A stretch of DNA of 34,029 nt from an uncultured Selenomonadales bacterium. Lineage in GTDB: Bacteria; Bacillota; Negativicutes; Acidaminococcales; Acidaminococcaceae. Below the pieces are notes generated by a model that had not been told where the DNA came from, made no database searches, and saw nothing but the letters and a program-made list of their open reading frames with translations. The position numbers were made by a program, and so were the translations under genes. Of the stretch, positions 8,014 through 13,401 are shown piece after piece. Each line of letters begins with the position of its first letter. Position 1 is the stretch's first letter. The stretch lies in assembly GCA_900315925.1 (NCBI GenBank), contig ONAV01000014.1:1-34029 (forward strand), given 5' to 3'.

Positions 8014-8322
8014 TTATTTCTTAACTTTTTTAGCTTTTTTTGCCGGTTTGGCATTAACTGCTTCCTTAAAAGCCTTGCCTGCTTTGAAAGCGGGAACAGT
8101 AGCAGCAGCAATCTTGATTGCAGCGCCGGTCTGCGGATTCTTGCCGGTACGGGCAGCGCGTTCACGAGCTTCGAAAGTACCAAAACCAATCAGCTGTACT
8201 TTGCCTTTCTGAGCAACTTCTTCAACAACAGCTTCAGTAAAGGCTTTCAATGCTTTTTCAACGTCTTTCTGAGACAATCCAGATGCTGCAGCAGCTGCTA
8301 CAATAAGTTCTTTTTTGTTCAT
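8014..8322 (-). CDS. hup: HU-family nucleoid protein with lysine-rich C-terminal tail
   Basis: 102 residues against about 90 for ordinary HU. Residues 1-90 are a canonical HU fold: MNKKELI start, GFGTFEARERAARTGKNPQTG in the DNA-gripping arm region, PAFKAGKAFKEAVN at the end. Residues 91-102 add an extra basic tail, AKPAKKAKKVKK, resembling histone H1-type or mycobacterial HU tails. HU dimers bend and compact DNA and here presumably form the main nucleoid protein. A strong GGAG site precedes ATG 8322 and a promoter is visible at 8384-8412. The gene is monocistronic, between that promoter and the terminator at 7966-7999. The tail composition is shared with the sigma factor extension encoded nearby. 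Confidence 0.96.
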   Translation of the reverse strand: MNKKELIVAAAAASGLSQKDVEKALKAFTEAVVEEVAQKGKVQLIGFGTFEARERAARTGKNPQTGAAIKIAAATVPAFKAGKAFKEAVNAKPAKKAKKVKK

Positions 8323-8799: not shown

Positions 8800-11520
8800 T
8801 TACATTCTTGGTTTCTTGTCGGTATCTTCATCTGTATCAGCCACAAAGGCACGTAACTGGCTGCTGCGTTTACTGCGCAGCCTGCGCAATGCTTTGGCTT
8901 CAATCTGACGGATACGTTCACGGGTAACGCCAAAATGCTGACCCACTTCTTCCAGCGTACGCTGCCGTCCGTCATTTAGGCCAAACCGAAGCTCCAGTAC
9001 TTCTCTTTCACGACTGCTTAATGTGTCGAGTACTTCGTTCAATTTTTCACGTAACAGCGAAAAAGATGCTGCATCTGCCGGAGCCGGAGCATCATGGTCT
9101 TCGATAAAGTCGCCCAGATGGGAATCTTCTTCTTCTCCAATCGGTGTCTCCAGAGAAACGGGTTCCTGGGCAATTTTCATGATTTCTCTCACCCGGTCTT
9201 CCGTGGTCTCCATCAGTTCCGCAATTTCCCGCGGAGTCGGTTCACGCCCTAATTCCTGTAACAGCTGACGGGATACGCGAATCAGCTTATTGATGGTTTC
9301 CACCATATGCACCGGAATACGAATGGTCCTGGCCTGATCGGCAATGGCACGTGTAATAGCCTGACGAATCCACCAGGTTGCATACGTACTGAACTTAAAG
9401 CCCTTATTATAATCAAACTTTTCAACAGCTTTAATCAGTCCCAGGTTTCCTTCCTGAATCAGATCCAAAAATAACATGCCGCGTCCCACATACCGTTTGG
9501 CAATACTTACGACCAGACGGAGATTTGCTTCTGAAAGGAAACGCTTTGCTTCATTTCCCTGCCGCTTAATCTCTTCCAGTAAAGCCGAAAACTGTGATTT
9601 TATTTCCACGAGACGCTGCGCGTTCTTTTTATCTGTCCTGTACACTTTGCTTTTGGGGCTGATCGTTTCCAAACGCGTATTGATCCACGCCTCGGATGCA
9701 GCAATCAGCTTGCTGATCTCATTCAGATTATGCGGTTCAGGCTCGTTGTCCTCTTCCCGTTCCGGGCATTCCTTTTCCCAATCCGCACATTTCAGCTTTT
9801 CGTCTTCCAACAAGCTGATGAAACGGCCACGCTCATTCTTCGTAAACTGGGCGGTATCTGCGACAAAATCCGCAACACTGTATTTTTCACCGCTTTTCTG
9901 TTTTTCACTAAACTTACGGAACGCAACAGGAATAGAGCGCATATCTGTAATGGCTTGTTCTGTTGCTAACAGATCGTTTAACTTCTGAAAAGCGTCTTCG
10001 AATTCCTTTTTCGTTTTAAATTTTAAAGGTTCATCCGATTTTTTATGGGCCTTACCAATCCGTTCAATCTGTTTGCTTTTATCCATGCGCTTGGCCAGCT
10101 CTATTTCGTCTTCACTCTGCAACAGAGGAACACGGCCAATTTCTTTCAGGTACATGCGCACAGGATCATCAATGTTAACGCCGTCGGGTACAGTCATAGA
10201 AGATGCAATTTCAGCTTCGGTAATTTCTTCCGCTTCTTTCTCTGCCTCTTCATCTTCAGCCGGCGGTAACAATGTGTCCTCATCTTCATCCTGCGGATAA
10301 ATAATATTGATTCCCTTACTCTGCAGATACTCCATCATAAAATCAATCGCTTCCGCAGAATTTACAGATGGAGGAAGGGTATCGTTCACTTCACTGTCCG
10401 AAAGAATATTGCTGTTCGCTTTCGCACGGGACTCCAATTCCAACAGTTTTTCTACAGGAAAACCTGCAGGCATCAGGGCAAGCAGTTCTTCACTTGCTTC
10501 TAATACCGGTTGTAATGCTTCAAAGCTTTCTGCTTTTTGCTTTTCAGGTTCTGCCAGCTCATTTTTATTTTTCTGTTTTAATGCCTGCTTATCTGCAGCA
10601 GAACTGTTTTTGGGCGCACTTATCTTTTTCTCAGCAGCCGGTTCTTTTGCAGAAGGCTTATTTACCGCTTTCTTCCTGTTCTGACCTACATTTGCTACCG
10701 AATTTATCTCGTCGTTATCTGTTACTTTTGCTGCTGCCTTTTTCGCAGCTGCTTTCGTTTCCCTGACAACTTTTACTTCCGCTTTTTCGGCGTCTGTCGT
10801 CTTAGTTTCCGGTTCGGCATTTATCTTTTTGGATTCAGTTTTAGTAATCGCTTCCAACTTCGCTACAGGTTTTTTAGCGGAATTTGCTGTAGATTTTTTG
10901 GTTGCGACAGCTTTAACCGCAGACTTCTTATCTTCTACTTTAACTGCCGGTTTCTTGACTTCTTTAAGCGCAGGTTTCTTTTCTTCGGCTTTAACTTCCG
11001 GCTTCTTTACTTCTTTAGCTGCAGATTTCTTTACTTCCTGTTTAACTGTAGGTTTCTTAGTTTCTTTACCTGCAGTTTTCTTTTCTTCTACTTTAACTGC
11101 CGGTTTCTTTGCTTCTTTACCTGCAGATTTCTTTACGGGTTCCGGCTTGGCAGCAGACTGCTTTGCGTCCTTCGGTTTAACCTGAAGCTTTTCCGAAATC
11201 TTTTTATCAGTCTCAACCTTTTTCGTCGTTGCTTTTTTTGCCTGCTTTTTAGCCTCTTCCGGTTTGGTTTCTGCAATACCTGCAGGTTTTTTTGCTTTAA
11301 CAACAGGTTTCTTCACATCAGGTTTGGCTGAAATCTTTGCAGGTTCCTTCTTCGCGGTCTTTTCCGGCATCTTTTTGGATATTACATCCGCTGCGGGTTT
11401 TACAGCCGCCTTCTTTGCTTTGCCATCCTGTTTTACCGCTTTTTTCGGTTTCACTGCAATCGTTTCTTCTGCAATTTCCATATTCAGTTTTTTGTTAGAT
11501 TTCTTCTTGTTAGTTGCCAT
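8800..11520 (-). CDS. rpoD: Primary sigma factor RpoD/SigA with giant Lys/Ala-rich N-terminal extension
   Basis: 906 residues, against about 370 in B. subtilis SigA and 613 in E. coli. Residues 1 to about 350 are a low-complexity Lys/Ala/Glu/Pro/Val extension with 17-residue tandem repeats at 130-197. Residues about 355-410 resemble region 1.1. An acidic linker (about 410-450) follows, and region 1.2 ([17 protein letters not shown]) is at 451-467. Residues about 480-655 form a large insert in the position of the sigma-70 non-conserved region. Region 2 (about 656-740) includes [17 protein letters not shown] of 2.3-2.4, region 3 is at about 745-800, and region 4.2 ([20 protein letters not shown]) at about 855-880. 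It directs housekeeping transcription. Its ATG overlaps the end of dnaG by 11 nt, the classic macromolecular-synthesis pairing, and GAGGGAAG lies 13 nt upstream inside dnaG. All core regions look intact. Confidence 0.96.
10930..11133 (-). repeat. 51-bp tandem repeats inside rpoD
   Basis: Four consecutive 17-residue units, of form KKSAxKExKKPxVKxEE, occupy residues 130-146, 147-163, 164-180 and 181-197. A degenerate fifth unit begins at 198. At DNA level these are 51-bp units that differ by scattered substitutions. Lysine makes up 34 of residues 101-200. Confidence 0.85.
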
Positions 11521-13306
11521 ACAGATTTGTAATCTTCCCTCTTAACTCATTGCATATTTTTATCTCTTCATGAAATCTAGGATCATTCATGCTTGCATAC
11601 GTATCTGCAAGGCGCCTGTGATCCTCATAGGCACGCTGTAAAAAATTCTGCTGCATCTTACGGATACAGTCGTCCGCAATCCGCTTCCGGTCTTCTTCAT
11701 CGGTTGCAAAATCTTCTCCAGCCAAAATTCTTGCGGTTTCCGTATTGATATCTGCGTCACCAGCTGCAAACAAGCTCTCTTTGACCATGGAAAAATCAGC
11801 GTTTTCCAATTTGCAAATTTTTTCATAGATGCTCTGACGGACAGGCGACACAAAACCAATCTGCTGTAAGATTTCCCTGTAAAAATCTATCATGCCGGAA
11901 TACCGGAAGAATAACAATAACAAATTACTTTCTGCCTGCTCCAGTACGCTGGGAACCGGTTGCGAATATTGCCCGAAAGTTTGGGGAACCGTATTGTTGC
12001 GGAGCGGACGCGCTACAGCCTTTTTCCTGTATTCCCCCCTGATCAGGCCTTCGTCGATGACCAGTTGCTGCGCCAGGAACTTTATGTACCCGGCAGCTTC
12101 TATCTCTGTACTGCACTCCTGCAGGTACGGAATTATATTCGACACACATTGAACTTTTCCTGCCAGATCCGAAACATTATTTTTTGAAATCGTGTAACGG
12201 ATCTGAAATTCTGTGCCATTCCACGCATTTTTTACCAGGTTTTCAAAGGCGTCTCTGCCAACATGACGGACATATTCATCCGGATCCTTGCCTTCCGGCA
12301 CATTCAGCACCCGGACCGAAAGTCCCGCTTTTTTGGCAATACTGACCGCCCGTACCGCATTGCGCCGTCCCGCGTCATCACTGTCATAAGCAAACACAAC
12401 ATTCTCTGTAATACGGTGAAGCAGTTTCGCATGCTGCTCGCTAAACGCAGTCCCCAAGGAAGCTACAACCCGGTTAATTCCGGCTGCATGAAGGCTGATG
12501 GCATCCATGTAGCCTTCCACGATAATCGCTTCCTTCGCTTCACGAATCGGCTTGAGGGCCACATCCAGGCCAAACAAGGTCTCCCGTTTCTGAAAGATAT
12601 CGGTTTCACCTGTATTCAAATACTTTGGCAGACCGTCGTCCATCACGCGGCCACCGAAAGCAATCACTTTTCCCCGCGGATCCTTGATAGGAATCATCAC
12701 CCGGTTGACAAAAAAATCGCTGTAATGACCGTTCTTATTCCGTATCAGCCCTGCAGCAGCAAGCTGTTCCAACGTACAGCCTTTTTTCACCATGTTCGTC
12801 TGCAGCGCATTAAAAGACGGCTGGGAAAAGCCCAGGGAAAAGCGTTCAATAATCGTATCGGTAATCCCTCTGTTATGAAAATAATCCAGCGCTGCTAATC
12901 CGGCTTTTGTTTTATGCAGGCATGCAGAAAAATAACGACAGGCCAAATCGTTAACCCGGTACATGTCTTTTCGTTTTTCTTCCCTGCGGACATCAGCCGC
13001 CGTCCGATGCGATTCGGGAATGGGGATATTGGCACGCGCAGCCAGCGATTTGACCGCTTCCGGGAAGGTGCTGTTCTCTATTTTCTGTACAAAGGTAAAT
13101 ACATCTCCCCCGGTATGACAACCGTAACAGTAAAAAAACTGTCGTTCCTTATCCACACTGAATGAAGGTGTCTTTTCCCCGTGAAACGGACAGCAGGCCC
13201 AATAGTAACGCCCTTTTTTCTGCAGCGAGATGTAACCGCCAATAACATCGACGATATCAGAGCTGTCTTTTACCTGTTTTTTAAAATCTTCATACTGCTG
13301 ATCCAT
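11510..13306 (-). CDS. dnaG: DNA primase DnaG
   Basis: About 598 residues, the standard length. DnaG makes RNA primers at the replication fork and is recruited by the DnaB helicase. The N-terminal CHC2 zinc-binding domain carries CCPFH near residue 40 and CYGC near 61. The TOPRIM catalytic core shows [12 protein letters not shown] (about 260-271) and [13 protein letters not shown] (about 305-317). The C-terminal part (about 440-598) is the variable helicase-binding domain. Either TTG 13309 or ATG 13306 could start the protein. AAGGAA (13317-13322) is 7 or 10 nt away respectively; I give the ATG. rpoD follows with an 11-nt overlap. I see no convincing promoter in 13310-13421. Confidence 0.96.
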
Positions 13307-13401
13307 CAATCGTAGGTTCCTTATTATCGAATTTCAATTACTTATTCTATATTTCAAAAAAAAATCCTCTTTTTTCAAGCAAAAACACTTGACACGTTAG
13401 T

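Follow-up and report, generated by a model that had tools for sequence, protein, structure and literature searches.

A primary sigma factor with a lysine-rich N-terminal tail and an insert between regions 1.2 and 2 in a Succiniclasticum-like rumen bacterium

The rpoD gene of the window (the whole stretch of 34,029 nucleotides analysed here) occupies positions 8800-11520 on the minus strand and encodes a primary sigma factor of 906 amino acids, as the initial annotation had it. Outside the order, RpoD frames are usually 370-395 residues long among the matches listed. Where do the additional residues come from and what might they do? We give about an even chance to an explanation in which two segments were added separately, in evolution, to an ordinary housekeeping sigma factor, as judged from sequence comparison.

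The rpoD locus and its host

All five Pfam sigma regions are present in order, each above its curated cut-off: region 1.1, canonical and acidic (PF03979, residues 358-432, positions 10225-10449), region 1.2 (residues 452-480, 10081-10167), region 2 (residues 664-732, 9325-9531), region 3 (residues 741-817, 9070-9300) and region 4 (residues 830-882, 8875-9033), all on the minus strand. The core regions are therefore intact, as first proposed. The protein scores 384.9 bits with TIGR02393, the RpoD C-terminal equivalog-domain model (cut-off 354). Its two best model matches, the full-length RpoD equivalogs NF006666 (540.4 for a cut-off of 572 bits) and NF004208 (521.4 for 555 bits), remain below cut-off, a shortfall probably due to the added segments. 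The RpoD assignment is made because of the region order and TIGR02393, and not from the full-length models. The window protein shares with Group 1 sigmas (RpoD/SigA) regions 1.1, 1.2, 2, 3 and 4, the dnaG-rpoD gene order and a TIGR02393 score above cut-off. It differs from them by a lysine-rich arm of about 350 residues and by 172 extra residues in the spacer between regions 1.2 and 2. A C-terminal tail of 11 residues plus stop (8800-8835, minus strand), which includes Asp/Glu and Lys, follows region 4 in the window only; the other 12 members of the genus stop after FVAD or FVxD.

The dnaG gene (11510-13309, minus strand; identified from its open reading frame, Pfam and NCBIfam) lies directly upstream. 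The end of dnaG overlaps the rpoD start (11510-11520), an arrangement conserved in every genus genome where rpoD was matched, 13 in all (11 bases in 10 of them and 14 in 3), that may reflect translational coupling. Among named organisms, Succiniclasticum ruminis DSM 9236 is closest (86% in the best-matching segment). The host is a Succiniclasticum-like rumen bacterium of the Acidaminococcaceae, in agreement with the earlier placement in the Negativicutes. The gene was matched in 13 of the 14 genus genomes, always in a long frame (715-932 residues); G004, the genome without a match, is 73% complete. Family-wide, 55 of 59 genomes gave a match, and of the 45 matches from beyond the genus, 30 have frames of 530-600 residues.

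The transcription terminator Rho was above the model cut-off in none of 61 genomes (the host and 60 relatives), while 8 of 14 control genomes scored above it. The weak matches to the Rho model are probably ATPase relatives.

The insert between regions 1.2 and 2

The insert covers residues 480-657 (9550-10083, minus strand). Region 1.2 is separated from region 2 by 214 residues, compared with 42 in ordinary Firmicutes, hence the 172 extra residues; the initial estimate was 175. The history of this segment was traced on a tree of the core regions (90 sequences, 272 columns, insert and tail excluded). The 52 rows with a spacer of 190-400 residues fall on one side of a single branch (support 100/96), and this clade was recovered in 100% of 200 bootstrap trees, although by the program's own note the bootstrap was close to, but short of, convergence. 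Six of an original 96 rows (L115, L169, L170, L196, L198 and L199) had been dropped. L198 and L199 have short spacers (54 residues) and fell as long branches inside the insert group in a first quick tree, while L169 and L170, divergent paralogues with a similar spacer, fell far outside it. When all 96 rows are retained and any spacer above 120 residues is counted, the quick tree needs 5 changes. Carriers are the Acidaminococcales (families f1, f124, f125 and f126) together with families f143, f145 and f147. A profile of the Acidaminococcales inserts matches those of f147, f145 and f143 with E values of 1.7e-9, 1.1e-10 and 5.3e-13. The insert thus apparently arose once, before the Acidaminococcales split from a few neighbouring Negativicutes families. 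Anaerovibrio-type RpoD proteins (L093, L095, L125, L129, L187 and L188) also have a long spacer (145-148 residues), in which profile comparison detected no similarity to the Acidaminococcales insert.

The paralogues L169 and L170 (genomes G046 and G050, genus g15) represent a second, divergent RpoD in frames of 600-634 residues with a similar insert. By eye, the N-terminus of the L170 protein seems region-1.1-like.

What was the source of the insert? Profiles built from 38 inserts and from 100 region 1.1 sequences align along 59 columns (score 31.5, E 4e-5; hhalign E values here refer to a single comparison and not to a database). The controls score lower: at most 14.2 for 200 column shuffles, 11.3 for the reversed profile and at most 18.0 for 16 DnaG windows taken from the same genomes as the inserts. 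The f147 profile, built from two sequences, contains four successive region 1.1 matches (E 1.4e-7, 3.7e-6, 2.7e-5 and 1.1e-4). PF03979 itself matches the L182 insert (genome G390) above cut-off in three stretches (E 8e-10). Of the six sequences in that scan only L182 has such a match, the inserts of its sister L181 and of the window giving none, and PF03979 is not among the 25 of 49 families listed for 22 inserts in another scan. A custom region 1.1 HMM identified two copies in the L181 insert, three in L182 and a single match in L177 and in L193/L089. The signal weakens in other comparisons. A 35-sequence insert profile compared with region 1.1 from outside the Acidaminococcales reached a score of 23.6 (E 1.2e-3, probability 19%), the insert profile found no match in E. 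coli region 1.1 alone (E 0.27), and the profile of the 13 genus inserts gave none with region 1.1 (E 0.16-0.18), while matching the f147 insert (E 1.4e-4). Of 71 individual inserts, 12 scored with the HMM above the 95th percentile of 1,420 shuffles, where about 4 are expected, some of them outside the expected position.

These comparisons indicate that the insert family carries a region-1.1-like module, with up to four tandem copies in f147. It seems that the insert derives from an additional region 1.1, the gatekeeper domain of the sigma factor. For the window this descent is proposed because of the family link through f147, and not from its own sequence alone. Its putative module, a strongly diverged set of three helices, lies at 9751-9957 (minus strand). 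Additional region 1.1 matches are also found more widely: 13 of 199 genomes in a phylum sample have more than one at E <= 0.01, and at least one of these extra matches lies in a separate frame of 517 residues (G169).

AlphaFold predicts a confident, all-helical structure for the window insert (184 residues, pLDDT 87.4). Modelled separately, the 69-residue module forms three helices (9-22, 28-34 and 40-52; pLDDT 85.0), which in the insert are embedded between long helices. Fold searches returned no region 1.1 structure; the long helices dominate two of them, and the third covered 36 chains without region 1.1, so that this outcome does not speak against such a fold. A PDB sequence search with the insert profile gave an unrelated best hit (E 0.13).

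The initial annotation had noted that proteobacterial sigma-70 has a non-conserved region at this place, which B. subtilis SigA lacks. In E. coli this region is helical and sits on the sigma-2/beta-prime face. The insert could accordingly be a proteobacterial-type non-conserved region, retained or acquired in the Negativicutes and unrelated to region 1.1. The position between regions 1.2 and 2.1 and the long helices of the model are as this alternative would have it, the NF004208 (PRK05658) alignment, which pairs residues 518-893 with profile positions 259-629, takes in part of the insert, and the genus profile taken alone lacks a region 1.1 match. However, PF04546 is absent from the listed hits for the scanned inserts at E <= 10 (in one scan, 25 of 49 families), and no similarity to the non-conserved region of E. 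coli was detected by hhalign (E 0.24), though a single sequence makes this a weak test. Moreover, several relatives show the region 1.1 signal, and the core-only tree unites the insert-bearing rows in one clade, with spacers of mostly 42 residues around it. We regard the proteobacterial-type origin as improbable. In the insert family the resemblance to region 1.1 shows at the profile level and, above the Pfam cut-off, in the L182 insert itself; the module differs in lying between regions 1.2 and 2, and in the window it has diverged beyond direct recognition. The insert may occupy the same sigma-2/beta-prime face as the E. coli region, where it could tune core binding and promoter escape.

The lysine-rich tail

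About 350 residues precede region 1.1 in the window protein. Residues 1-341 (10498-11520, minus strand) form a Lys/Ala/Glu/Pro/Val-rich extension whose low complexity ends near residue 350. It consists of 28% Lys, 17% Ala, 11% Glu, 9% Val, 7% Pro and 1% Arg, with a net charge of +48 and a single Phe, Trp, Tyr or Cys in all, which bears out the composition first described. A 51-bp (17-residue) tandem repeat is present in 4.4 copies (10911-11134, minus strand). The tail resembles the H1-like KPAA tails of Pseudomonas AlgP and PhaF in being Lys/Ala/Pro-rich, net basic and repeat-built. It differs from them in its location at the N-terminus of a sigma factor, its 11% Glu, its 17-residue unit and the near absence of KPAA: the window protein has one such motif, the 13 genus members have 0-4, and no tandem KPAA units were found in the window tail. 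The original label "histone-like" therefore holds for the H1-like basic composition, but the glutamate content makes the tail a net-positive polyampholyte and not a pure KPAA tail.

All 13 genus members carry the tail, with 23-30% Lys, 0-4% Arg and 17-27% Ala. Measured to a point 110 residues ahead of region 1.2, it is 166 to 371 residues long. Across the genus, tails therefore differ in sequence and length but keep their composition. The tail is thus not the isolated oddity that it first seemed to be.

Could translation simply start near residue 350, the upstream frame being fortuitous? An in-frame ATG does occur at residue 350, just before region 1.1, but it is preceded only by GAAGAA, with no clear ribosome site. 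The annotated ATG is kept in 13/13 genus genomes, as is an N-terminal M-[AV]-[AT] block with a Lys-rich segment behind it, and the residues past the dnaG overlap are largely conserved. A similar GA-rich stretch precedes the ATG in all 13; since the DnaG C-terminus is encoded there too, this conservation does not count as independent evidence. Frames 2 and 3 of the extension are interrupted by stops in every genome, while the coding frame is open. In five pairwise DNA alignments of the tail, built without reference to codons, every one of the 31 gaps has a length divisible by three, and changes are most frequent at third codon positions in each of the five. The conserved ATG, the open frame and the in-frame gaps led us to reject the downstream start, which had been raised at the outset and which now seems extremely improbable; the tail looks really translated. 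It is probably disordered. Frame length was abandoned as proof of a tail in other genomes, and tails were called by composition because the beginning of some long frames, such as L027, appears to be non-coding.

Similar Lys-rich tails occur in the Selenomonadaceae (346 residues in L122 and 328 in L183; also L184 and L191), in Anaerovibrio, in Acidaminococcus (short), in L088, L167 and others. In the rest of the family a long tail is mostly absent. On the core tree the tail requires 6 changes when at least 40 residues are demanded, and 5 when the minimum is set at 100 or at 150. These stricter labels miss L155, which has a tail with 25% Lys as well. A first labelling (33 of 96 rows, 8 changes; 32 of 90 rows, 7 changes) was discarded because it counted L195 by mistake: the N-terminus of that protein carries a tandem region 1.1 and no Lys tail. 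Lys-rich tails thus appear to have been gained or lost at least five to six times in the Negativicutes, gain and loss being indistinguishable on this tree. On the 90 core sequences, the mapping across Negativicutes that was initially called for gives a single clade for the insert and repeated change for the tail.

Other N-terminal additions are also found. Genus g5 has an acidic extension on RpoD (L153 and L154, genomes G025 and G026), E/A-rich with a net charge of -34 in L153. In genus g283 of family f2 (L195 and L196, genomes G468 and G484), region 1.1 is tandemly duplicated at the RpoD N-terminus.

A genome-wide fashion for Lys/Ala/Pro tails was considered and finds no support so far. A search of the host genome with the extension as query returned only the extension itself, and the 209,519 bases scanned (window included, of 2.56 Mb) contain one other Lys-rich open reading frame, L232 (G000:C48), a 406-residue frame with a Lys-rich low-complexity stretch. 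The IF2 proteins of three genus genomes (L225, on G000:C23, L226 and L228) carry instead a long N-terminal N/Q/R/G-rich repeat of the FNRQGQ type.

A gene for the DNA-binding protein HU with a Lys-rich tail (KPAKKAKKVKK) lies at 8014-8322 (minus strand), directly after rpoD, an arrangement seen in 8 of the 13 genus genomes. A motif scan did not find it at the other 5 genus loci or at 26 further loci, some with short flanks. Pairing of the tail with an adjacent HU gene is not required, because HU follows rpoD in 8/13 genomes whereas the tail is present in 13/13.

Possible roles and known systems

RpoD carries a net charge of +1 to +32 in all 13 genus members, compared with -9 to -52 in 11 of the 13 relatives tabulated. 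The two positive relatives, L122 (+42) and L183 (+14), are both K-tailed. In the genus, region 1.1 and its linker have a net charge of -20 to -22. The Lys arm may therefore be electrostatic, counterbalancing the acidic charge of region 1.1 and pairing in exchange with that region and with DNA. Such an arm would raise the non-specific DNA affinity of the holoenzyme, keep it near DNA and ease the displacement of region 1.1, and it would grow and shrink by repeats. The analogy comes from two findings: low-complexity regions of prokaryotic DNA-binding proteins are enriched for lysine (PMC6821194), and KPAA peptides of AlgP bind DNA (PMC9239181). The latter paper reports DNA binding for H1-like KPAA tails in general, the PhaF tail being thought to tether granules to the nucleoid. 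Taken as a whole, the explanation that combines a single-origin insert bearing a region-1.1-like module with a repeat-built electrostatic arm is, in our estimate, evenly balanced between right and wrong.

A serious rival to the electrostatic arm is that the tail is a near-neutral product of tandem-repeat slippage at a tolerant N-terminus, limited only by solubility and charge and serving no specific role. The tandem repeat itself, the 166-371 range of lengths inside one genus and the lack of a long tail in most of the family outside it all agree with neutral expansion. So does relaxed constraint: where the cores are most alike (four pairs), the extension has a pN/pS of 0.29-0.45, the insert one of 0.10-0.20 and regions 2-4 one of at most 0.01, and among the 14 pairs listed the more distant ones reach 0.56 (tail) and 0.72 (insert). 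These values come from a protein-guided alignment of repeats and are probably biased downwards. However, pN/pS stays below 1, the first residues are conserved, the Lys and Arg contents are held in 13/13 members during sequence turnover, and the tail changed repeatedly on the tree. We consider a neutral tail possible, though rather less than probable.

Another alternative is suggested by the Actinobacteria, where long N-terminal extensions on housekeeping sigmas are known already. As suggested for Streptomyces HrdB, the extension could be autoinhibitory and relieved by proteolysis or Lys modification. According to PMC9205884, an N-terminally truncated HrdB of Streptomyces coelicolor raised initiation at several promoters; the extension thus appears inhibitory in vitro, and a negative role was suggested. 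For mycobacterial SigA, PMC10011835 states that the N-terminal region is disordered, matters for function and is phosphorylated. Disorder of the window tail would be a shared property, as is the presence of a long extension on the housekeeping sigma. These proteins belong to a distant phylum, their extensions probably have an independent origin, and the mycobacterial one measures about 225 aa in the same paper, while those of Succiniclasticum reach about 370 residues and are repeat-built and Lys-rich. An autoinhibitory role by analogy seems unlikely to us. More tentatively, and with only a modest chance of being right, region 1.1 may duplicate as a module: in one Negativicutes lineage its extra copies, up to four in tandem, would have entered the spacer between regions 1.2 and 2 and given the polymerase several DNA-mimic gatekeepers, with the Lys arm of Succiniclasticum as their electrostatic counterweight.

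In the open-access literature (titles and the beginnings of abstracts, subscription papers and preprints lying outside this scope), we recognised no report on extensions of primary sigma factors in Negativicutes and, within the same scope, none of region 1.1 copies in the non-conserved region. As far as these searches go, both the recurrent Lys-rich tails in Negativicutes and the spacer insert of apparently single origin, whose region-1.1-like module occurs up to four times, are new. Returning to the two-addition explanation, the insert clade may be a case in which the source of an insert between regions 1.2 and 2 can be read, namely a region-1.1-like domain present in one to four copies. The recurrent Lys tails of the Negativicutes would provide a natural length series in which sigma charge can be related to DNA search and open-complex formation.
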